In this document: positions 26,043-38,632 of the stretch, in pieces
Position numbering within the stretch: position 1 is the first letter of the stretch
Layout: each line of letters begins with the position of its first letter
DNA from: Rhodobacter sp. SY28-1
GTDB lineage: Bacteria > Pseudomonadota > Alphaproteobacteria > Rhodobacterales > Rhodobacteraceae
Reading direction: 5' to 3'
NCBI RefSeq assembly: GCF_005222785.1
Contig: NZ_STGH01000001.1
Location: forward strand, 620,001-684,000
DNA length: 64,000 bases
Made by a program: the position numbers and the translations under genes
Notes under the pieces: generated by a model
The model's database searches: none
Seen by the model: the letters and a program-made list of their open reading frames with translations, nothing else
What the model was told of the DNA's origin: nothing

Positions 26043-26582
26043 TCAGTCGTTCTTCGGCAGCCCCAGCCGGGCGGAATACAGCGCCTTCAGCTCTGGCGCT
26101 CCAGCCCGAATGGCACGCAGTCCCACGATGCGCCCCACTGGGCAGCTTTCCAAGAAGCGGTCCAGGACAGCGATGCAGACATGCCACCCGGCCGCAAAGC
26201 TGGAAAGGTGATCCGGCAATGTCGTCGTATGCCGCAAGATCAGGACAGTATTGGTGTCATCCGATTGCAGATCCCACGTCAACACGTCTTCCCCCCAGCG
26301 AAAGACAAGTAGTCGCGCAAAATCGGCTTCCAGGACCTCGCCGTCCAACAACCCGGTGTCGGCGCTGTCATCCGTCATCCGAAGACGTGCGGGGCCAAGG
26401 CTGTCCAGCGGTCGGTCCGATACGAAGGGCAGCCATTCCAACTGCTCGGAGGGTTCAACGAGGGCACGCCAGACCCGTTCAGGCCGATGGCACAGCGTCC
26501 TGGTGAAGATCAGCGTCGCAAGGCCGTTCCAAATCTCGCTTCGCACATCCGCCAGGGGACCCAGATCAAGCGCACCGCTCAT
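26043..26582 (-). CDS. SRPBCC domain protein
   Basis: 179 residues; LIFTRTLCHRPERVWRALVEPSEQLEWLPF is the typical first strand-helix of AHSA1-like proteins, and LTWDLQSDDTNTVLILRHTTT lies in the sheet. Its ATG overlaps the arsR stop by one base (shared A/T in TGATG), indicating translational coupling. Sequence similarity to the downstream SRPBCC protein is limited, so it is not a recent duplicate. Confidence 0.88.
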   Translation of the reverse strand: MSGALDLGPLADVRSEIWNGLATLIFTRTLCHRPERVWRALVEPSEQLEWLPFVSDRPLDSLGPARLRMTDDSADTGLLDGEVLEADFARLLVFRWGEDVLTWDLQSDDTNTVLILRHTTTLPDHLSSFAAGWHVCIAVLDRFLESCPVGRIVGLRAIRAGAPELKALYSARLGLPKND

Positions 26583-26896
26583 CAGTGATCACGCTTTCGG
26601 TCAAGATGGCGTTCGAGGGCATCCAGATGCCGGCTCCATAGCTCTCGATAAGGTTCAAGCCAGGCATCGATGGCTTTGATCCTGTCAAACTCAAGTTGAT
26701 AGATACGCCGTTGCGCGTCGGTACGGCTGCTGACGAAGCCCGCGTCTTTCAGCACTTTCAGGTGCTTGGAAACACTCGGTTGGGTCATCTGCAACTGGGC
26801 GGACAGGCTGTTTACGCTTGCCTCGCCCGTGCGAAGCCGGTCGAGAATGCTGCGGCGGGATGGCTCGGCCAGGATGGCAAAAGTGTCTTGCGGCAT
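26582..26896 (-). CDS. ArsR-family winged-helix regulator
   Basis: 104 residues from ATG 26896 (MPQDTFAILAEPSRRSILDR). The HTH is VNSLSAQLQMTQPSVSKHLKVLKDAGFVSSRTDAQRRIYQL, of the subgroup coupled to SRPBCC/AHSA1 proteins. No metal-binding CxC motif is seen, so it likely responds to an organic ligand or to the SRPBCC proteins. First gene of its operon; a palindrome just upstream (26920-26939) is the likely autoregulatory site. Confidence 0.92.
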   Translation of the reverse strand: MPQDTFAILAEPSRRSILDRLRTGEASVNSLSAQLQMTQPSVSKHLKVLKDAGFVSSRTDAQRRIYQLEFDRIKAIDAWLEPYRELWSRHLDALERHLDRKRDH

Positions 26897-26919: not shown

Positions 26920-26939
26920 ATATACGTGTCAAGGTATAT
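26920..26939. promoter_or_regulatory. palindrome ATATAC-N8-GTATAT (putative ArsR operator)
   Basis: A perfect 6-bp inverted pair 24 bp upstream of the arsR ATG in a locally AT-rich patch. Position and size fit an ArsR autorepressor site. Confidence 0.5.
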
Positions 26940-27001: not shown

Positions 27002-27020
27002 GTTTGCGCATTTTTACAAT
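27002..27020 (+). promoter_or_regulatory. shared 19-bp upstream motif, copy 1
   Basis: GTTTGCGCATTTTTACAAT, 58 bp before the epoxide hydrolase ATG. An 18/19 copy lies 81 bp before the winged-helix gene at 32421. It has a TACAAT -10-like end. It is a shared promoter or regulator site. Confidence 0.55.
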
Positions 27021-27078
27021 CGTCCGGCCGCCGCCTTGCCTAGGTTGACTTCATCGCAATCCAGCATGGATCGACCAG

Positions 27079-28290
27079 ATGAACCGCCGTCAGTTCGCCA
27101 GCACACTCACCGCTTCAACCTTTCTTGGCGGTGTTTTCGCCCACACCACCTTCGCACAGGAGAAGACTGCCATGACCACGCCGACACCCTTCAAGATTGC
27201 CTTTCCCGCGGCGGACATCGAGGACCTCAAGGCGCGGCTTCGGTTGACACGCTGGCCGGACGAGCCTGTCGGGGCGGGCTGGATGATGGGCACCAACCTT
27301 GATTACATGCAGCGGCTGACCGACTATTGGCTGAACGGTTATGACTGGGGCAAGGCAGAGGCCGAGCTGAATGCCCTGCCGAACTACAAGGTGTCGATCG
27401 ACGGGATCGACATGCATTTCGTCCACAAACCTGCGGCCCGGAAGGATGCAACGCCGCTTCTGCTGCTGCACGGCTGGCCGGATTCCTTCTTCCGCTACCA
27501 CAAAGTCATCGACCGCCTGTCCGAGGATTTTAACGTCGTCGTCCCCTCAATTCCGGGCACGGGCTTTTCTGGCAAAACAGCGTTGCCGTTCGACACAGTT
27601 GCCGACCTTGCTGCAAAGCTGATGACCGAAGTTCTGGGCTATCCGAAGTTCATCGCCGCGGGGGGCGACATGGGATCGGTCATTGCCATGTCCCTGTCGC
27701 AGCGCAATCCCGACAAGCTTCTGGGCTATCATGTGACCGATGTCGGCTATCCCGACCACACCACCGACTTCGCGGCACTCAGCGGACCCGAGCAGGCATA
27801 CGCCGGAGCCTTGCAGCAATGGTTCTTCCAGCACGGTGCATTCAACATGGTGCAGTCCTCGAAACCGCAAAGCCTGGCCTTTGGCATGACCGACTCGCCT
27901 GTCGGGCTGGCCGCCTGGATCCTCAGCTTCATGGCGGGGATGGGCGTTGGTGACGAGGTTGATAGCCGCTTTGGCCGCGACGCGCTTTTGACCAACATCA
28001 TGATCTATTGGCTGACCGGCACCGCGGCGTCCTCCTTCCGGATCTACAATGTGAACGCCATGCAGCCACTGACAACCACTGGAACAGACACCAAGGTCCC
28101 GGTTGCCGTCGCGACCGAAGCGCCGATCCCCGGCATGGTTCGGATGCCGCGCGAATGGGCCGACCGGCAGACCGGCGGGAATGTCGTCCAGTTCCACGAC
28201 CTGGAGACCGCCGGTCACTTTGCCGCCTGGGAGGACCCCGCATTCTACGTTCAGGACCTCCGGGAATTTGCCGCACTGCTGAACGGCTGA
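27079..28290 (+). CDS. epoxide hydrolase-like alpha/beta hydrolase, Tat-exported
   Basis: 403 residues. MNRRQFASTLTASTFLGGVFA is a twin-arginine-type signal, and a second Met after AQEKTA could start a cytoplasmic form. An EHN domain (IEDLKARLRLTRWPDEPV) precedes the hydrolase fold: oxyanion motif LLLLHGWPDSFFRYH near residue 132, nucleophile elbow AAGGDMGSVIAMSLS near 196 with Asp as nucleophile, and catalytic His in ETAGHFAAWEDP. It would open epoxides of xenobiotics or terpenes. It begins a plus-strand run with PhzF and VOC genes and is preceded by the shared 19-bp motif. Confidence 0.9.
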   Translation: MNRRQFASTLTASTFLGGVFAHTTFAQEKTAMTTPTPFKIAFPAADIEDLKARLRLTRWPDEPVGAGWMMGTNLDYMQRLTDYWLNGYDWGKAEAELNALPNYKVSIDGIDMHFVHKPAARKDATPLLLLHGWPDSFFRYHKVIDRLSEDFNVVVPSIPGTGFSGKTALPFDTVADLAAKLMTEVLGYPKFIAAGGDMGSVIAMSLSQRNPDKLLGYHVTDVGYPDHTTDFAALSGPEQAYAGALQQWFFQHGAFNMVQSSKPQSLAFGMTDSPVGLAAWILSFMAGMGVGDEVDSRFGRDALLTNIMIYWLTGTAASSFRIYNVNAMQPLTTTGTDTKVPVAVATEAPIPGMVRMPREWADRQTGGNVVQFHDLETAGHFAAWEDPAFYVQDLREFAALLNG

Positions 28291-28392
28291 CCTGCCTTGC
28301 TTCTGGCCGGAGGACTGCCGTCCGACCGGCCAGTTTGCCACACAGGGCCGATGTACCTGGCTTTATCTACCTAAGGTCATATGGAGACTCGA

Positions 28393-29268
28393 ATGAGCGA
28401 CTATCCTTTTGCCCTTGTTGACGTCTTCGCCGAAGCGCCGCTGCAGGGAAATCCCCTTGCCGTGGTCGATGCGGCGACCGGTCTGGCGGACGAGGTGATG
28501 CAAAAGCTGGCGGCCGAGTTCAACCAGGCTGAAACCACGTTCATCTTTCCCAGCGACCGGGCGACGCGCAAACTGCGGTCCTTTACGGCCGCCGGATCCG
28601 AGGTCTTTGGCGCCGGGCACAACGCACTGGGCGCCTGGATCTGGCTTGGCGAAACCGGGCAGCTTGGCGCGCTGGACCGGCCGGTCATCTTCCATCAGGA
28701 AATCGGGGACCAAGTCCTGCCGATCCGCGTCTGGCGGCAGGACGGCCGCATCCACGGCGCGATGCGGCAGGCGCCCCTGACCCTTGGCCGGACAGTTGAC
28801 GATGTTACGGCCCTGGCAGCGGCGCTTGACCTTACGGCCGCCGATCTACTGCAGCATCCCGAGGCGCGGGTGGCCGACACCGGGGCGAACCATCTGATGG
28901 TCAGGGCGCACTCGCGCGATGTCGTCGACGCGGCACGGCCTGATGCGCGGGCGCTGCTGCCCTGCCTCCGCGACTGCGGGGCCGAGGGCTGCTATCTTTA
29001 CGCCTTCGACGAAGGTGCGCCCGAACTGGCCTACGCGCGGTTCTTCAACCCGACAGTGGGACTTTGGGAAGACGCTGCCACCGGCACGGCTGCCGGGCCC
29101 CTGTGCGCCTATCTGGACCATCACGGGATGCTTTCGACCAGGAAGCAGTTGGCGATCGAGCAGGGAAGGCTGATGGGTCGGCCAAGCATTTTGAGTGTCA
29201 CGATGGCTCCTGACGCAGAATTGAGTGGCTCTGGCGTCGTCGTAATGACGGGGCAACTTTCCCTGTGA
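28393..29268 (+). CDS. PhzF-family isomerase
   Basis: About 291 residues from ATG 28393; GGAG lies 7 nt upstream, better than the ATG at 28381. Motifs are VDVFAEAPLQGNPLAVV, the catalytic Glu in FNQAETTFIF, SFTAAGSEVFGAGHNALGA and DAATGTAAGPLCAYL, all of the PhzF/diaminopimelate-epimerase fold. The usual TP.EL.(F/L)CGHPT motif is altered to FTAAGSEVFGAGHNA, so activity may differ from textbook members. Substrate unknown. It sits between the epoxide hydrolase and a VOC protein. Confidence 0.9.
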   Translation: MSDYPFALVDVFAEAPLQGNPLAVVDAATGLADEVMQKLAAEFNQAETTFIFPSDRATRKLRSFTAAGSEVFGAGHNALGAWIWLGETGQLGALDRPVIFHQEIGDQVLPIRVWRQDGRIHGAMRQAPLTLGRTVDDVTALAAALDLTAADLLQHPEARVADTGANHLMVRAHSRDVVDAARPDARALLPCLRDCGAEGCYLYAFDEGAPELAYARFFNPTVGLWEDAATGTAAGPLCAYLDHHGMLSTRKQLAIEQGRLMGRPSILSVTMAPDAELSGSGVVVMTGQLSL

Positions 29269-29319
29269 TCCGGAAAGCAGATTGCCGTGAACCCCAAACG
29301 ATCAAGTGAGGAAGTTACC

Positions 29320-29691
29320 ATGCAGAAAGTCGTCGGCATCGGTGGCGTGTTCTTTCGCGCCAAAGACCCAAAGGCTCTGGCCGGATGGTACGAGGACGTC
29401 CTTGGCGTCGACATCAATGACCGAACCTGGGTGCAGGAGCGTGGCCAGACAGTCTTTGCACCGTTCAGGGTCGACACTGACTACTTTAGCCGCCCGGAGC
29501 AGCAGTGGATGCTCTGTTTCCGGGTGAATGATCTTGCCGCGATGCTTGAACAACTTCGTGCTGCAGGGATCACAGTTCACCAGCAGCCCGAATGGAACAG
29601 CGAGGTCGGTGAGTTCGCGCGCATCCATGATCCCGAAGGAAACCCGATCGAACTCTGGCAGCCGTCGGACTATTCGCTTGGTCTGATGTAA
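29320..29691 (+). CDS. VOC-family (glyoxalase/bleomycin resistance-like) protein
   Basis: 123 residues from ATG 29320 with GAGGAAG just upstream. One glyoxalase-like module pair: GIGGVFFRAKDPKALAGWYE, then FRVNDLAAMLEQLRAAGI and IHDPEGNPIELWQP, the last carrying the metal-ligand Glu. The family includes lyases, dioxygenases and binding proteins. It ends 13 bp before the convergent AraC-family gene. Confidence 0.9.
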   Translation: MQKVVGIGGVFFRAKDPKALAGWYEDVLGVDINDRTWVQERGQTVFAPFRVDTDYFSRPEQQWMLCFRVNDLAAMLEQLRAAGITVHQQPEWNSEVGEFARIHDPEGNPIELWQPSDYSLGLM

Positions 29692-29704
29692 TAACCTAAA
29701 CCCG

Positions 29705-30379
29705 TCAGATCCGGTGAACCGCTTCAAGGTCCGACGGAAGGCAGCCCATGATCTTCTTGATCGACTTGATCATGTGCGGCTGATCGGCATAGCCAAGCTC
29801 GGCCGCGACATCAGCGCCGGCACCACCGGCCTTCAGCCTACGCACGGCCTCCTGCGCCCGTCGGATCAGCCGGAAATCCGTTTGCGTTATGCCCGTCGTG
29901 CGCATGAAATTGTGCTGCACCGTCCGATCGGGCGCTGGATCAGCCGATCCTTCCAGCACCTTGGCCACCAGGTCGTTCGTCCTGAGCACGCGCTTCTTTT
30001 CCATTGCCGCGACAATGGCTTCGGCATTGTCGAAGGTCGGCAACGGAAGCATCAGCCCTTTGGCGTCGAACCCCCCGTCACGCACCGGAAGGAACCTTAT
30101 TTTCGCGCCGGTCGGAGGTGCGGGGTCGTCGGCAAAGTGGACATGACCGGCTAGGGCAATGGCCACCACCTCTTCCCCGGCCAGATGCGGCACGTCGACT
30201 GGTCTCGCCCTCTGGCCGACATTGACGACCCTTGGCGCGGCACCCGGCGTCAGTAGGAGGAACAGGCGCCAGCATCCGTCCGGCGTCGCCCGATAGACGC
30301 CGTCGTCGTGAAAGGAAAACCGCCAGACGCTGTCGATCCATGGATGCGAGGAGACGCGTCTATAGAAGTCAAAGGCCAT
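29705..30379 (-). CDS. AraC-type HTH regulator, paralogue 1
   Basis: 224 residues. The N-terminal sensor part has the pattern HPWIDSVWRF.....GVYRATPDGCW; the C-terminal HTH has TTGITQTDFRLIRRAQEAV and ELGYADQPHMIKSIKKIMG, the AraC second helix pattern. It is clearly homologous to the protein at 33520-34194 over its whole length, including the near-identical C-terminal end (MIKSIKKIMG.LPS.L..VH.I). Convergent to the epoxide hydrolase-PhzF-VOC genes, which it may regulate. Confidence 0.88.
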   Translation of the reverse strand: MAFDFYRRVSSHPWIDSVWRFSFHDDGVYRATPDGCWRLFLLLTPGAAPRVVNVGQRARPVDVPHLAGEEVVAIALAGHVHFADDPAPPTGAKIRFLPVRDGGFDAKGLMLPLPTFDNAEAIVAAMEKKRVLRTNDLVAKVLEGSADPAPDRTVQHNFMRTTGITQTDFRLIRRAQEAVRRLKAGGAGADVAAELGYADQPHMIKSIKKIMGCLPSDLEAVHRI

Positions 30380-30470
30380 AGCCGGAGGTTAGCGTTTTCC
30401 GTGACTTCCGGCAACCGGACGCCACTCATCGGTGTACGGAATACCGGATTCTCCGCGCAAGCGCGCAGGC

Positions 30471-31055
30471 CTAGCCCTGATTGCAGGTATAGCGCAGTAG
30501 GACCGTTTCGCTTTGCGGAAGCTGGCGCTGTTCAACCACGGCCAATCGGCCGGACGGCGGAGCCAGAAAGAGCCGCTCGCCTACGCCGAGCACAGTGTTG
30601 CCGACAAGAACGTGCAGTTCATCGACCAGACCATGACCAAGCAACGCGTTCATCAGACGACGACTTCCGTAGGCCACGACATCGCCGTCGGTTTCGGCTT
30701 TCAGGCTGCGGACACGGGCGTTGACCTCCGCGCCTCTGACGATCCGGGAATCGCCCCAGGGATCGGTCGGGCCAAGCGTCAACTGATTGCTGACCACGCT
30801 CTTGCGCGCCTTGGCAAGCCGACCGGCGATGTCCGCCAGCAAGGGATCGGGCGCGATTTCCTTCAGCACCTCCGGCCAGAAGGACCGCAGAATGTCAAAG
30901 GTCACGCGCCCGAACAGAAGCGCCCCCGCACCGCGCAGCAGGTCCAGATTGTGCTGGTCGAACTCTGCCCCCATGGGAAGTCCGTTCAGATCGCCCGCAG
31001 GACCCGCACAGAACCCGTCAAGCGACATGAGATTGCTGAATATAAGATTTGCCAT
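30471..31055 (-). CDS. dihydrofolate reductase-like (RibD C-terminal) protein
   Basis: 194 residues from ATG 31055 (MANLIFSNLMSLDGFCAGPAG). LMSLDGF, ALLFGRVTFDILRSFWPEV, KSVVSNQLTLGP and DGDVVAYGSRRLMNALLGHGLVDEL-type segments are those of the YyaP/RibD_C DHFR-like family. These proteins bind NADPH-like cofactors but mostly lack a proven reaction. It lies 109 bp downstream of the sigma factor gene on the same strand. Confidence 0.9.
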   Translation of the reverse strand: MANLIFSNLMSLDGFCAGPAGDLNGLPMGAEFDQHNLDLLRGAGALLFGRVTFDILRSFWPEVLKEIAPDPLLADIAGRLAKARKSVVSNQLTLGPTDPWGDSRIVRGAEVNARVRSLKAETDGDVVAYGSRRLMNALLGHGLVDELHVLVGNTVLGVGERLFLAPPSGRLAVVEQRQLPQSETVLLRYTCNQG

Positions 31056-31164
31056 AAGTTTCGCCTTTCCATCCAAGTTGCATCGTGACGCAGCCCTAGT
31101 TGGAGGCCCGTCATGAGGAATGAGACGAGCGCGCGCGGAAACTAATCGGACCCCGGCCAGGTTT

Positions 31165-32196
31165 TTAGAGGTTTTCTTCCGGAAGCCCGAAGCGGCGATG
31201 CAGCGCCGGATCAAGGAAGCTGTGCAGATGTACTATCCGGTCACCACGGAACTCTGTCAGCAGGATCGCCGCCATCTGGAACCGGTCTGCGCCTTGGGGC
31301 TTGAGGTAGCAGGCAAACCCCGCCCGTCCATTTGCGCGCAGTGGTTGAAGCCGCCAATCCGTAGCAAAGACACGCTCGCGGAAGAACAGCGCAACCTGGT
31401 CACGCCCACTGAACCAGGCCGGAAGCGGGGGCATGGTGAAGCGGGCATCCTCGGCAAGCAAGTTGACAAGCGCGTCGACGTCCCTGCGTTCCCAGGCCGA
31501 GACGAAGGCGTTCAGCAATTCTCCCTGCCGGTCGGGCGAAGGAAGCCGAGGCTCCGCTCGGTTCGGGTCGTGCGGAAGCCGTTGACGCACAGTGGCGCGC
31601 GCCCTTTGCAGGGCGCTCGTCACAGCGGGTACGGACAGTTCGAGTAGCCCGGCAGTTTCCGCTGCGGAAAACTCCAGCACATCGCGCAGCAGAAGAACCG
31701 CGCGCTGCGTGCCGGGCAGAAGCTGCAGCGCCGCCACAAAGGCCAGGGACACCGTTTGACGGCGCGCAAGATGATGGAACGGATCGCCTTCGTCTGAACC
31801 TTCATCGGAAAGGTCTTGATCCGGACAGGGCTCTACCCACACTCGCCCCGGGATCAGCTCGCCAAGATCGGCGGTCGACTGAAAAGCCGGGCCATAATCT
31901 GGGGACAAATGACGCCTGGGCCGTTTCGAAATCAGTCGCAGGCAGACATTGGTGCCGATCCGGTAGAGCCACGCCGCGAAAGAGCCGCGCCCATCATAGG
32001 TTGCAAGTCCGCGCCACGCGGCGAGCAAGGTTTCCTGAAGGGCGTCGTCAGCGTCATGGGGCGAGCCGAGCATCCGGTAGCAGTGGACGAAGATCCGGCG
32101 ACGATGCGGGGAAACCAGACTTTCGAACGCAAGCTGATCGCCCGCACGGGCCCTGCCGAGACGGTCTTGCTCGCATTGAACCGGGGGAGAAGTCAT
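31165..32196 (-). CDS. ECF-type sigma-70 factor with C-terminal SnoaL/NTF2-like domain
   Basis: 343 residues. Region 2 is FESLVSPHRRRIFVHCYRMLGSPHDADDALQETLLAAW; region 4 is LLPGTQRAVLLLRDVLEFSAAETAGLLELSVPAVTSALQRAR. After residue ~225 comes a SnoaL-like fold (LLNAFVSAWERRDVDALVNLLAEDARFTMPPLPAWFSG), as in SigJ/ECF41-like groups where this domain replaces a separate anti-sigma factor. No anti-sigma gene is adjacent, which fits. The divergent winged-helix gene starts 225 bp away and could be a target. Confidence 0.9.
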   Translation of the reverse strand: MTSPPVQCEQDRLGRARAGDQLAFESLVSPHRRRIFVHCYRMLGSPHDADDALQETLLAAWRGLATYDGRGSFAAWLYRIGTNVCLRLISKRPRRHLSPDYGPAFQSTADLGELIPGRVWVEPCPDQDLSDEGSDEGDPFHHLARRQTVSLAFVAALQLLPGTQRAVLLLRDVLEFSAAETAGLLELSVPAVTSALQRARATVRQRLPHDPNRAEPRLPSPDRQGELLNAFVSAWERRDVDALVNLLAEDARFTMPPLPAWFSGRDQVALFFRERVFATDWRLQPLRANGRAGFACYLKPQGADRFQMAAILLTEFRGDRIVHLHSFLDPALHRRFGLPEENL

Positions 32197-32320
32197 GCGT
32201 CCTCAACCGAAATCTGCGCGGGCTCGCGGCAATGCGCGCAAGTGACTGTCGCAAGCGTAGGGGGGCCAAGACCGCGGTTCAACCTTCGCTTTTTGCATGC
32301 CCGCGCCCTGCGCCGGTCAG

Positions 32321-32339
32321 GTTTGCGCATTTCTACAAT
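32321..32339 (+). promoter_or_regulatory. shared 19-bp upstream motif, copy 2
   Basis: GTTTGCGCATTTCTACAAT, one mismatch to 27002-27020. It lies 81 bp before the winged-helix gene, in the divergent region with the ECF sigma gene. Confidence 0.55.
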
Positions 32340-32420
32340 TTGCCTACGCGGCCAGAGACTGCTCTACTCCTCATTCCCTGCCGCATGTGGTCCACACCGC
32401 TGAAAGTAGCCCTGAGAAAC

Positions 32421-33494
32421 ATGAGTCACGACACCGCATTCCTTCGCTTCCAGCAGCAGCTTCTAACGGGGGCGCGCAGGAACTCAGTTTCCGACATCGT
32501 CGAATGGTTCGGCGCGATCCAGGCGCAGGATTTTGGCGCTGCCCTCTGGACCATCGGCCAACGCTCGGACAGCCTGACGTTTGCCGACGTCGAGCGCGCG
32601 ATTGCTGATCGGCAGATTGTCCGAACCTGGCCGCTGCGCGGAACCATCCACTTCGTGCCCGCAGCGGATTTGCGCTGGATGCTGGCGCTTACCGGCGCGC
32701 GTCAGAACGAACGATCCTGGTCCGTCTTGCGGGGTGTGGGTCTTGACCAGACGATCGTGGATCGCGGGAGGTCGATCCTCGAAGCGGCGCTGCGCGACGG
32801 GCCGCGGACCCGGCCCGAGATTTATGCAGCCTTCCAACGGTCGGGCCTTCCGACCGAGAAAGGCGCAGGCCTTCATGTCATCGGCTACTGGGCGCAGGCG
32901 GGCTTGATCTGCTTTGGCGCCCATCGCGGCAAACAGCCAACCTTTGTCCTGCTGGATGATTGGCTTGCAGATACAAACCATCACACGCCTGACCCGGACA
33001 CGGCGCTTCGAACCCTGGCCGCCCGCTATTTTCAAAGCCGAGGTCCAGCGACCGACCGAGATCTTGCTTGGTGGTCGGGTCTTCCCCTGACAGTTGCGCG
33101 CCGGGCGATCCGGCTTGCGGGCGATCTGCTGGAGGAGCGCAGGCTGAACGGGGGCTCACTTTGGCTGCACCTGTTCAACCCGCCACGGAAGTCGGTCGAT
33201 GGCACCCTGCTGCGGCTTCTGTCGCCGTTTGACGAAATCCTCGTCGCCTACAAGGATCGTTCCGCCTATGACCGCCATCCGGGCGTGCCGGACCCGGCTT
33301 TGACATTTTTCAGCCCGACAGTTCTTGCAAACGGTCGTCTTGTTGGAATCTGGAAGAAGGTGGTCGGTTCGAAATCCGCCCAGGTACACTTGGCTGTCTC
33401 TGCCGACGCGGGCAGACTGGATGCGCATCTGATCGAGCGTGAGCTGGGCCGTTTGTCGCATTTCTGGGGTAGGACTTTTGCGCTGGCACCGTGA
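32421..33494 (+). CDS. winged-helix DNA-binding domain protein (YcaQ/AlkX-like)
   Basis: 357 residues from ATG 32421 (MSHDTAFLRFQQQLLTG). The family pattern is clear: IVEWFGAIQAQDFGAALW, IVRTWPLRGTIHFVPAADLRWML, RGPATDRDLAWWSGL and LLSPFDEILVAYKDR near the end. Related proteins (AlkX/YcaQ group) act as DNA glycosylases on crosslinked or alkylated DNA; the QAQ(D/A) motif near residue 40 is present. This assignment to repair is from family knowledge, not tested. It is convergent with AraC paralogue 2, 25 bp away. Confidence 0.85.
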   Translation: MSHDTAFLRFQQQLLTGARRNSVSDIVEWFGAIQAQDFGAALWTIGQRSDSLTFADVERAIADRQIVRTWPLRGTIHFVPAADLRWMLALTGARQNERSWSVLRGVGLDQTIVDRGRSILEAALRDGPRTRPEIYAAFQRSGLPTEKGAGLHVIGYWAQAGLICFGAHRGKQPTFVLLDDWLADTNHHTPDPDTALRTLAARYFQSRGPATDRDLAWWSGLPLTVARRAIRLAGDLLEERRLNGGSLWLHLFNPPRKSVDGTLLRLLSPFDEILVAYKDRSAYDRHPGVPDPALTFFSPTVLANGRLVGIWKKVVGSKSAQVHLAVSADAGRLDAHLIERELGRLSHFWGRTFALAP

Positions 33495-33519
33495 TCGTCG
33501 AACGGTATTCAGTCCCGGT

Positions 33520-34194
33520 TCAGATCTTGTGGACTGACCCGAGGTTCGACGGCAAATGCCCCATGATCTTCTTGATCGACTTGATCATGTGCGACTGGTC
33601 AGTATAGCCGAGGTCAGCTGCGACATCCGCCGCGCTTTGGCCCGCTTTCAGATGCCTTACCGCCTCTTGCGCGCGGCGGATCAGCTGGAAATCCTTCTGC
33701 GTGATCCCGGTTGTCTTGCGGAAATGCTGCTGCACCGACCGTTTCGAGGCCGCCTTTGGCCTTTCACTGAACGCTTTCGCTACCACGTCATCGGACTTAA
33801 GCAGTCCCGCTGCGACCATCTTGTCGACCAGATCCTCTGCACCTGAAAAGCTCGGCAGGGGAAGCTGCACGCCGTCCAGCAGGAACCAACCGTCCTGCAC
33901 CTCCAGAAAGCGGATCGTTGCGCCGGTCCTAACCTCGGTGTCCGCCGCAAGGAACACATGCGCGGCAAAAGAAATGACGACGGAATGCTCGCCCGCGGAA
34001 TAGGGCACATCGACGGGCTCTGTCGCCTGTCCAGTAAGAAATACTGTCGGCGTTCCGTCGGGCGAGCAGGACAGGATCAGGTTCCAGGACCCGTCCGGCG
34101 TGGCCCGGTAAATGCCGTCGGTCAGGCAAACCGTCTGCCAGATGACGTCTATCCAAGGGTGCGCTGATGTCCGGTGCGTGTGTTTTTGGGTCAT
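33520..34194 (-). CDS. AraC-type HTH regulator, paralogue 2
   Basis: 224 residues, the same length as the protein at 29705-30379 and alignable throughout: HPWIDVIWQTVCLTDGIYRA at the N-terminus, KTTGITQKDFQLIRRAQEAV and DLGYTDQSHMIKSIKKIMGH at the C-terminal HTH. The sensor halves differ much more than the HTH halves, suggesting the same DNA site but different signals. Convergent to the winged-helix gene. Confidence 0.88.
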   Translation of the reverse strand: MTQKHTHRTSAHPWIDVIWQTVCLTDGIYRATPDGSWNLILSCSPDGTPTVFLTGQATEPVDVPYSAGEHSVVISFAAHVFLAADTEVRTGATIRFLEVQDGWFLLDGVQLPLPSFSGAEDLVDKMVAAGLLKSDDVVAKAFSERPKAASKRSVQQHFRKTTGITQKDFQLIRRAQEAVRHLKAGQSAADVAADLGYTDQSHMIKSIKKIMGHLPSNLGSVHKI

Positions 34195-36392: not shown

Positions 36393-37218
36393 GGGGGTGT
36401 TGTCAGAAGAACTTCGCTTGCGACGGGTTAGTGCACCCGGCTAGCCGTTCGGGATGACCAAACGTTCCCCATTCCGGTACTTCAAAACGAGCCCCGAGAT
36501 CATTCGCTTGGCGGTGATGCTCTACATCCGCTTCCCGTTGTCGTTGCGCAACGTGGAGGATCTTTTGCACGAGCGTGGCATCTAGATCAGCCACGAAACG
36601 GTCCGGAATTGGTGGAACAAGTTCGGCCCGATGTTTGCCGCCGAGATCAGGGGAAAGCGTGTCGAGGCTATGCGCGCCCATCGCCACTGGCAGTGGCACT
36701 TGGACGAGGTCTACGTGAAGAACAACGGAGTGACACACTACCTCTGGCGCGCTGTCGATCATGAAGTCGAGGTGCTGGAAAGCGTCGTCACCAAGACACG
36801 AGATCGCAAGGCAGCCCTTAAGTTTCTGAAGAAAGCGATGAAACGGCATGGAAGTCCGGAGGCGATCGTGACGGATCGGCTTCGGTCCAACGGCGCTGCT
36901 CTGAAGGACCTGGGGCGCGGGGATGACCGCGAGATGGGGCGCTGGCTCAACAACCGAGCGGAGAACTCTCACCTTCCGTTCCGACGACGCGAGCGTGCGA
37001 TGTTGCGGTTCCGGCGCATGCATACGCTACAGAAGTTCGCTTCAGTTCATGCTTCGGTCCACAACCACTTTCCGATGGAGCGCCACCTCCAGAGCCGCAA
37101 CACCTACAAGCAAACCCGCGCCGCTGCTCTCGCTGAGTGGCGCGGCCTTCTCGTTGCCTGATTGAACGCTGGGGTTGGGGTAACGGAGACTGGTTCTCAT
37201 TCGTCTGACAGCACCCCC
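36393..37218 (+). mobile_element. IS6-family insertion sequence (about 826 bp)
   Basis: Terminal inverted repeats GGGGGTGTTGTCAGAAGAA (36393-36411) and, complemented, GGGGGTGCTGTCAGACGAA (37200-37218) match at 17 of 19 positions. They enclose one IS6-type DDE transposase frame, and the length is normal for the family. Flanking 8-mers (TGGGCAGG and GCAAGAGT) do not match, so no target duplication is seen; this suggests one flank has been lost or rearranged. Confidence 0.8.
36454..37161 (+). pseudogene. IS6-family transposase interrupted by one amber codon
   Basis: From ATG 36454 the frame reads MTKRSPFRYFKTSPEIIRLA to HERGI, then TAG at codon 44 (36583-36585), then ISHETVRNWWNKFGPMF onward to the natural stop. 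The DDE residues are present in WHLDEVYVK, IVTDRLRS and NRAENSHLPFRRRER. Length (235 codons) is normal. The single in-frame stop is the only lesion seen, so it is either freshly dead or translated by readthrough or internal start. A shorter product from an internal ATG at 36631 would still hold the DDE core. Confidence 0.82.
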
Positions 37219-37449: not shown

Positions 37450-38511
37450 TCAAGAGGTGGAGCTAGCACTCCAACTCACTTTCGTTTTCGATGGAAGAGC
37501 CTGCCGAAATCGCTGCCGATACTGCAGGGGCGAAATTGCTGTGGAACGCTTGAAGAGCTTCCTGAACGATGCCGGCTCAACATACCCTGCTTCCTCTGCG
37601 ATCTGATCGATCGGATCGTCCGTCGACTCGAGCATTTGCTTCGATTCTTCAATGCGTAGCGATTGTACGTATTCCAGCGGAGAGTAGCCCGTCGCGGCCA
37701 GGAACCTTCGCTTGAACGTCCGTGCCGCCAGACCGGACGCCATGGTCATGCCCGCAACCGGGTTGGGCGATGCGTAGTTCTCGGCAACCCAGACTTGTGC
37801 CAAAGCAACCGCGGCGTCGTCGTGTTGCGGCGGACGCACCCGCGCTGCGAAGGGAGCTTGACCGTTGCTGCGGTCCCCAAAGAGAAACAGCTTGGCAGTG
37901 CGCCGGGCTTCGTCCTCTCCGCAAAACCGAGCCACGATGTAAAGCACGAGGTCTGTCCACGACGCGTTGCCGCCCGACGTGACCAGACGGTGCTCCGCCC
38001 CGGACGAGACCAGAACACGTTCCGGTCGCAGGCGCACAGCGGGGTATCGCCGGCGGATCTGGTCGGTTGCGGCCCAATGGCAGGTCGCCTCCTCTCCATC
38101 CAGAAGTCCAGCTTCTGCGAGGAGCAAGGATCCGGTGCAGACCGAGCAGATCAGTGCGCCCTGAGCGTGCTGCTGCCGAAGCCATGCTGCGACCTCGGGC
38201 CAGCGTCCGCGGGTTTCCTCGTCCCGACCTATGGCGAGGTCAGCCACAATGACGATGTCGGCGCGACGGGCCTCGGCAAAAGACAGATCCGGCGTAATCG
38301 GCAGGCCAGCGGAGTTGCGGAAGGATTCGCGACTGGCCGCGACGATCCGCGGCTTGAACCGCCGTGGACCAGGCGGCCATCCGGTCAGCATTTCCCAGCC
38401 GGAACCGACGTAAGTCAGGACTTCGTAAAGCCCGTGCAGGACACCGGTCGCAGTCTCGGGCATAGCGACGAGGCAGACGGAAATCGTTGTCGGTGCATAG
38501 GGCGTGGGCAT
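37450..38511 (-). CDS. GlxA-family regulator (DJ-1/PfpI domain plus AraC HTH)
   Basis: About 353 residues from ATG 38511; ATG 38529 is an alternative and neither has a strong ribosome-binding site. The N-terminal amidotransferase-like domain has ICSVCTGSLLLAEAGLLDG (elbow Cys) and ATCHWAATDQIRRRYP. The C-terminal AraC HTH has MASGLAARTFKRRFLAATGY and AEEAGYVEPASFRKLFKRST. It is divergent from the DUF1127-Tat protein-MATE run, its likely target. Ligand unknown. Confidence 0.9.
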   Translation of the reverse strand: MPTPYAPTTISVCLVAMPETATGVLHGLYEVLTYVGSGWEMLTGWPPGPRRFKPRIVAASRESFRNSAGLPITPDLSFAEARRADIVIVADLAIGRDEETRGRWPEVAAWLRQQHAQGALICSVCTGSLLLAEAGLLDGEEATCHWAATDQIRRRYPAVRLRPERVLVSSGAEHRLVTSGGNASWTDLVLYIVARFCGEDEARRTAKLFLFGDRSNGQAPFAARVRPPQHDDAAVALAQVWVAENYASPNPVAGMTMASGLAARTFKRRFLAATGYSPLEYVQSLRIEESKQMLESTDDPIDQIAEEAGYVEPASFRKLFKRSTAISPLQYRQRFRQALPSKTKVSWSASSTS

Positions 38512-38632
38512 TTTCAAGGCTTGGCACATTTGGACCGTTTCTGTCGAGTCCGCGCCTCACGGTCACCGATGACGATATGCGATCAGACCGCCGGATGGCC
38601 ACTTCGGCCCCTTCACTCGAAAGGTTTGAGCA

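Follow-up and report, generated by a model that had tools for sequence, protein, structure and literature searches.

Layout of the two units

We analyzed a 64,000-nucleotide stretch of Rhodobacter sp. SY28-1 DNA (contig NZ_STGH01000001.1, positions 620,001 to 684,000; the whole stretch is referred to here as the window), in which a 19-base element, GTTTGCGCATTT(T/C)TACAAT (= TTTGCGCATTT(T/C)TACAAT), lies on the plus strand upstream of two different transcription units, i.e., genes for an epoxide hydrolase, a PhzF-family isomerase and a VOC/glyoxalase-like protein in the first, and a gene for an AlkZ-like DNA glycosylase family protein in the second. Behind each unit, as originally predicted, a gene for an AraC/XylS regulator (AraC1 and AraC2, respectively) is placed in convergent orientation (Table 1); the gap between the hydrolase operon and AraC1 is 13 bp. 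Sequence comparisons indicate that the pairing of this candidate operator with its regulators is real and specific and that the units represent a new small regulon of known kind. We put at roughly two in three the probability that this is a laterally acquired chemical-stress regulon, in which an AraC2-type regulator acts on one site and has the hydrolase and the AlkZ-like protein as its targets.

Table 1. Features of the two units, in coordinates of the 64-kb window
Feature	Position	Strand	Placement	Evidence
Operator copy 1	27002..27020	+	58 nt upstream of the epoxide hydrolase ATG	Pattern search; top matrix match, 35.0 bits
-10-like hexamer TAGGTT	27041..27046	+	20 nt downstream of operator copy 1	TANNYT geometry
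Epoxide hydrolase, EHN family, 403 amino acids	27079..28290	+		PF06441 2.7e-37; PDB 5f4z 3.8e-74
PhzF-family isomerase	28393..29268	+		PF02567 4.3e-47; TIGR00654 above cut-off; start picked by eye
VOC/glyoxalase-like protein	29320..29691	+		PF18029 1.5e-10; start picked by eye
AraC1, AraC/XylS regulator	29705..30379	-	Convergent with the hydrolase-PhzF-VOC unit	HTH_18 3.4e-12; outside AraC2 clade in tree
Operator copy 2	32321..32339	+	81 nt upstream of the AlkZ-like ATG	Pattern search; second matrix match, 23.5 bits
AlkZ-like DNA glycosylase family protein, 357 amino acids, Q-A-Q motif	32421..33494	+		PF06224 2.3e-57; PDB 5uuj 5.5e-21
AraC2, AraC/XylS regulator	33520..34194	-	Convergent with the AlkZ-like gene	HTH_18 6.3e-15; 73-79% identity to foreign AraCs

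When up to three mismatches were allowed, the whole 4,281,633-base genome contained the two predicted copies of the element, which read GTTTGCGCATTTTTACAAT (copy 1) and GTTTGCGCATTTCTACAAT (copy 2), and no others; the reversed control pattern had 0 matches in the genome, and the same search found 2 matches in the window and none in any of 100 shuffled versions. With TTGCGYANNTYTACAAT, a looser pattern for which one mismatch was allowed, the same two sites were returned, both as exact matches, and none of the 31 further genomes of the genus had an exact match. As the two copies differ at only 1 of 19 bases, they might be taken for a product of chance or of a recent DNA duplication; this is barely conceivable, given the empty shuffles, the flanks of the two sites, which are unlike each other, and the AraC tree (see below), in which the split between AraC1 and AraC2 predates that between AraC2 and foreign AraCs. 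Chance as the origin of the two copies was ruled out by the shuffles, the genome search and the foreign-site matrix.

This weight matrix was built from 13 sites found in other genomes, all upstream of hydrolase genes. On both strands of the 64-kb window, the two sites ranked first and second with the scores given in Table 1, as compared to 11.4 bits for the next best match and 14.5 bits for the best score in 20 random (Markov) windows. The presence of the second site before a gene that is not a hydrolase, within unlike flanks, is the strongest argument for an operator over shared ancestry of one promoter.

AraC1 and AraC2, each 224 amino acids long and thus of equal length as predicted, were the genome's only matches when it was searched with AraC1 at E <= 1. 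Their C-terminal domains matched PF12833 (HTH_18) with 46.9 and 55.7 bits, respectively (cut-off 33.6), which places both in the AraC/XylS family. Overall identity between the two proteins is 54%, with 67/140 (48%) for residues 1-140, 54/74 (73%) for residues 151-224, 40/49 (82%) for residues 164-212 and 21/24 (88%) for residues 189-212. The helix-turn-helix (HTH) end is therefore more alike than the sensor half (73% versus 48%), as the original prediction had it, but "nearly identical" was too strong a description except near the second HTH (HTH2). Among the aligned C-termini, HTH2 of AraC1, DQPHMIKSIKKIMG, is the same as in several foreign AraC2-type proteins, and the first HTH (HTH1) reads TVQHNFMRTTG in AraC1 versus, as a rule, SVQQHF[KR][KNR]TTG in the AraC2 type. 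The N-terminal domain is beta-rich in an AlphaFold2 model made from three sequences only (mean pLDDT 71.7); a comparison of this sensor-domain model with the PDB gave weak matches, with cupins among the first 50 and 0 matches at E <= 0.001. DUF6597 matched AraC2 weakly and below its cut-off (18.9 bits; cut-off 27), as it did the orthologue at locus L065, described below.

Association of the site with AraC2-type regulators in other genomes

A motif-first scan of genome contigs with TTTGCGCATTTNTACAA yielded at least 119 stretches, all 119 of which were searched with both AraCs by tblastn. Among the matches listed, one of the 119 (locus L065, Mesorhizobium sp. CA8) holds a relative of the AraCs, and 118 hold none at E <= 1e-3. 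At L065, the same 19 bases as at the window hydrolase site lie 77 nt before the ATG of a hydrolase that is 77% identical to that of the window, with a convergent AraC gene behind; the encoded protein shows 78% identity to AraC2 and 56% to AraC1 and is, at E <= 1e-10, the genome's sole family match.

The AraCs have matches at E <= 1e-20 in 11 of 146 genomes from the genus of Mesorhizobium sp. CA8; 10 of the 11 are close and one (G765) is distant. The site precedes the hydrolase in all ten close loci (L065, L136-L144), with 0-4 mismatches to GTTTGCGCATTTNTACAAT. Pattern TTGCGYANWTTTACAATC occurs exactly, and once each, in 10 of 144 genomes of this genus, which are exactly the carriers of a close AraC; there was no exact match in the 134 genomes of the sample that have no close AraC. 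Together with the convergent AraC behind 2/2 sites of the own genome, these counts bear out the predicted neighbourhood of motif and AraC subfamily, and a motif spread genome-wide without AraC neighbours, the outcome named as contrary to the prediction, was looked for and found neither in the own genome nor in the 144 genomes. As far as comparison of sequences can tell, these data support an operator function of the motif, linked to this subfamily of AraCs. In genome G691, one site with a single mismatch (locus L185, around 3140) runs straight into VPSIPGTAFSGRTAL, as inside the hydrolase gene, and looks like a decayed cassette in an AraC-less genome.

A 394-genome sample of the family of G672 yielded 10 matches at E <= 1e-20, the sole close one being G672 itself; an order sample (397 genomes) gave 6 matches at E <= 1e-25, three close (G672, G744 and G1544) and three distant. 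In the genus of G1544, 22 of 67 genomes match the AraCs, four of them closely. The site is present in three of these four loci (exact to TTGCGYANNTTTACAAT in L205, with 1 mismatch in L206 and 3 in L181), and the fourth, L207, ends at a contig end before that stretch. At L181, the most informative of these loci, the order is site, hydrolase, AlkZ-like gene 29 nt later and convergent AraC2-type gene; identities to the window proteins are 29% for the hydrolase (which has a leader resembling a twin-arginine translocation (Tat) signal by eye), 63% for the AlkZ-like protein and 74% for the AraC. The content of this unit suggests detoxification of an epoxide or alkylator plus DNA repair.

Fifteen more distant loci with AraCs of 31-38% identity were also investigated (L172-L176, L182, L183 and L208-L215; L182, L183 and L208-L215 are 10 of the 18 distant matches from the genus of G1544). 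All 15 have a hydrolase within 5 kb, adjoining the AraC, on the same strand in 12 and convergent in three (L183, L208 and L215); in the three convergent loci, no site within 4 mismatches was found before the hydrolase. The few site-like matches upstream of these AraCs overlap a -35-like TTGCGC. In L212, L213 and L182, the site-like element is flanked by -35-like and CAGAYT boxes, 56-60 nt upstream of the AraC start, and possibly represents autoregulation. Six loci that are more distant again (L145, L177-L180 and L184) had no hydrolase match, and a RibD_C reductase gene lies near the AraC in five of them (L145 and L177-L180).

Origin and pairing of the parts

The original prediction described the two units as a duplicated cassette, a view that the AraC tree, the identities and the unlike flanks refute. 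In a tree of 37 AraCs, AraC2 and 14 foreign AraCs group at 99/93, with AraC1 outside this group and support of 100/100 for all 16 proteins; the tree program flagged AraC1 as a long branch of possibly unsure placement. The identities point the same way, as AraC2 shares 73-79% of its residues with AraCs from two further genera versus 54-56% with AraC1. The window hydrolase is 70-77% identical to foreign hydrolases paired with AraC2-type proteins, and it groups with 12 such hydrolases at 100/100 in a tree from which the program removed one row (L183_EH) for too few filled columns. The two trees indicate an exchange of partners rather than duplication of the cassettes in place, i.e., on this phylogenetic evidence the parts of two cassettes are re-paired, with an AraC2-linked hydrolase beside the diverged AraC1 and AraC2 beside an AlkZ-like gene.

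A two-row AraC profile matched 1 of 32 genus genomes, 1 of 394 genomes in a family sample and 1 of 390 in an order sample, the own genome each time (limits of 1e-15, 1e-20 and 1e-15, respectively; the samples overlap, and as at most 7 candidates per genome were scored in the family and order scans, a few misses are possible). This rarity in genus, family and order, together with the kinship of the cassette parts, led us to infer lateral gain. Carriage on a plasmid was considered and rejected: AraC1 matched 8 plasmid records, all below 60% identity, AraC2 matched none at 1e-20, and the 9.3-kb stretch had no near DNA match in the plasmid search. An IS240-type DDE transposase domain (PF13610) lies 2.4 kb from AraC2, in a 176-amino-acid frame (36631-37161) that is apparently short at its N-terminal end; its presence fits a laterally assembled region. 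Another AraC regulator, with a DJ-1/PfpI domain, is encoded at 37450-38529 and did not turn up in the genome search with AraC1 at E <= 1.

Between the two cassettes (30471-32196) lie a RibD_C reductase-like gene and a gene for a TIGR02960-type extracytoplasmic function (ECF) sigma factor with a SnoaL domain, both on the same strand as AraC1, so that co-transcription with AraC1 is possible. Upstream of copy 1, an ArsR-family gene (26582-26896, minus strand) precedes two AHSA1-like genes and has upstream of it an imperfect inverted repeat, ATATACGTGTCAAGGTATAT, at 26920-26939, perhaps the own operator of that ArsR, divergent from the hydrolase promoter.

Which of the two regulators reads the site is a separate question. 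AraC2-type proteins accompany the site in other genomes, and AraC1 is tied to it by its position and by HTH2 only. One alternative, which we consider a minority possibility but the most serious of those weighed here, is that AraC2 alone reads the site and governs the two window promoters, one in trans; AraC1 would then be decaying or have a different site, e.g., before the ECF and RibD_C genes. Such an arrangement would agree with the membership of the window hydrolase in a clade paired with AraC2-type regulators, with the long branch of AraC1 outside the AraC2 group, with an HTH1 in AraC1 unlike the AraC2 type and with L065, where a sole, AraC2-like family member goes with the same 19-base site; it fits less well with the location of AraC1, convergent and 13 bp behind the hydrolase operon, a position held by AraC2-type proteins elsewhere, and with an HTH2 helix in AraC1 that is the same as in orthologues accompanying the site. 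The originally predicted reading of one DNA site by both AraCs may hold, as their HTH2 helices are almost the same, but HTH1 is unlike at several positions.

Promoter geometry, enzymes and proposed function

A TANNYT hexamer follows the site core in every hydrolase promoter compared (that of the window and 13 foreign ones, 14 in all, 9 of which are from close relatives), at 19 nt in L065 and 20 nt in the others; by chance, some 0.3% of window positions would be expected to show TANNYT at such spacing. Should TANNYT be the -10 box (-12 to -7), the site core would span about -49 to -33, which, by analogy with I2 of AraC, we take to be the position of a class II AraC-type activator site. No second half-site was found within 120 bp upstream in 15 promoters (best matrix score <= 2.2 bits).

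The resemblance of TACAAT to a -10 hexamer raises the alternative that the motif is a core-promoter element only, in which the AraCs play no part. We judge this improbable by a wide margin, as conservation spans the whole TTTGCGYANNTTTACAATC block, a second -10-like box is kept 19-20 nt downstream, and the 134 genus-sample genomes without a close AraC lack an exact match. A regulator that acts as a repressor, with the site overlapping the -35 region and an electrophile releasing the AraC, is less improbable, but still an outside prospect: the site-like matches between -35-like and -10-like boxes upstream of AraC in the distant relatives L212, L213 and L182 would suit it, but the close group has no good -35 hexamer at the usual spacing with TANNYT (by eye), as in activator-dependent promoters, and a site end at about -33, given TANNYT at -12 to -7, fits class II activation as at I2 of AraC.

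Several observations weigh against the proposed regulon. The window AlkZ promoter has no TANNYT at 15-24 nt (TGCTCT is found at 20), and its site deviates from the foreign consensus (TCTACAATT), so that this promoter may be a weak one or of another kind. In HTH1, AraC1 departs from AraC2 (QHNFMR versus QQHFRK), and no AraC1 orthologue was found in the genomes searched. Closely related genomes account for 9 of the 13 foreign sites, and as site and AraC travel in one cassette, their co-occurrence within a genus partly reflects common descent. Pattern matches with one mismatch also occur without the AraC, with 8 matches to TTGCGYANNTYTACAAT in 6 of the 31 other own-genus genomes (reversed control 0) and 3 matches in 2 of the 144 genomes from the genus of Mesorhizobium sp. 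CA8 (two in G691 and one in G814; reversed control also 3). Upstream of the 15 distant AraCs, matrix matches reached p <= 0.005 in three and p <= 0.025 in two more, with none in 10.

The functions predicted for the first unit were borne out by domain profiles. The hydrolase has an EHN domain and an alpha/beta hydrolase fold that carries the GGD and GH motifs; it matches solved epoxide hydrolases over its whole length, including EHN-family (microsomal-type) 5f4z and 4i19, and its GGD and GHFAA regions, presumably those of the nucleophile and the histidine, respectively, align with 5f4z. It differs from these two enzymes in a Tat-like leader (start MNRRQF, by eye), in sharing an operon with PhzF and VOC genes and in its link to an AraC. 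The protein of the second unit, predicted to be YcaQ/AlkX-like, matches PF06224 with 195.6 bits (cut-off 25.9; profile positions 1-329 of 329) and carries a Q-A-Q that aligns with the QAQ of AlkZ in PDB 5uuj. In excerpts of two papers, QxQ (or HxQ) marks AlkZ-like and QxD YcaQ-like proteins (PMC7367128, PMC9040887); the (Q/H)xQ motif of the AlkZ clade is present here, and a YcaQ/AlkX identity is excluded by Q-A-Q in place of QxD. The same excerpts report AlkZ homologues from clusters for, among others, epoxide-bearing genotoxins, and discuss AlkZ-clade enzymes mainly with antibiotic producers. AlkZ, the self-resistance DNA glycosylase of azinomycin producers, shares with the window protein the HTH_42 family and the QxQ motif and is linked in these excerpts to epoxide-bearing genotoxins; the window gene differs in having a hydrolase-type operator before it and a convergent AraC behind. 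The enzyme families and this AlkZ link, as far as the excerpts carry it, point to detoxification plus repair.

The window AraCs resemble well-known AraC/XylS activators (AraC, XylS and MarA type) in their C-terminal double HTH, in an asymmetric site of about 17 bp and, going by the TANNYT geometry, in a site just upstream of and overlapping -35; they differ in being short (224 amino acids), in an N-terminal domain that has no confident family, in a single site and in convergence with their target. In the Ada adaptive response, an AraC-type DNA-binding domain controls the repair of DNA alkylation damage, and the window system would share such control of alkylation repair if our reading is right. 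AraC2 differs from Ada in that no methyltransferase domain was found in it, with similarity at the HTH level only (21.8 bits versus a cut-off of 345). Literature searches, judged by title, found no such regulon of an epoxide hydrolase and an AraC-family regulator; they found no paper joining AlkZ-like proteins with epoxide hydrolases and, among the matches listed, none on topic by title for TTTGCGCA with AraC.

We thus favour activation by an AraC2-type regulator. The site, its conservation and specificity, and the re-pairing of the parts emerge from sequence comparison; binding, activation, inducer, substrate and cross-talk of the two AraCs are what we infer beyond it. The regulator would bind a single asymmetric site, TTTGCGYANNTTTACAATC, of about 17-18 bp, with each HTH taking one half; the assignment of helices to halves would follow that known for the family. 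As the site ends about 20 nt before the -10-like TANNYT and would overlap the -35 region, it would sit where class II activators of the AraC type bind. The N-terminal domain may sense a small molecule, whereupon the convergent neighbour genes would be switched on, i.e., those for the epoxide hydrolase (here with PhzF and VOC) and the AlkZ-like DNA glycosylase. An electrophile, probably epoxide-bearing, would likely be destroyed by the one target, and DNA alkylated by it repaired by the other. A more far-reaching and decidedly tentative version is a two-arm inducible defence against a DNA-alkylating epoxide toxin that the host need not make, in which two AraC sensors for different ligands feed one operator, toxin hydrolysis (hydrolase, PhzF and VOC) and lesion removal (AlkZ) are jointly induced, and modules are swapped between bacteria.

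These findings assign a concrete operator sequence to the AraC subfamily that accompanies epoxide hydrolases, and they tie an AlkZ-clade glycosylase to the regulon. The shared operator permits a direct test of two diverged sensors feeding one promoter set, and a reporter driven by it could be of use in identifying the inducer. Overall, the unit of regulator, hydrolase and AlkZ-like protein suggests how bacteria that do not produce such compounds could respond to them.

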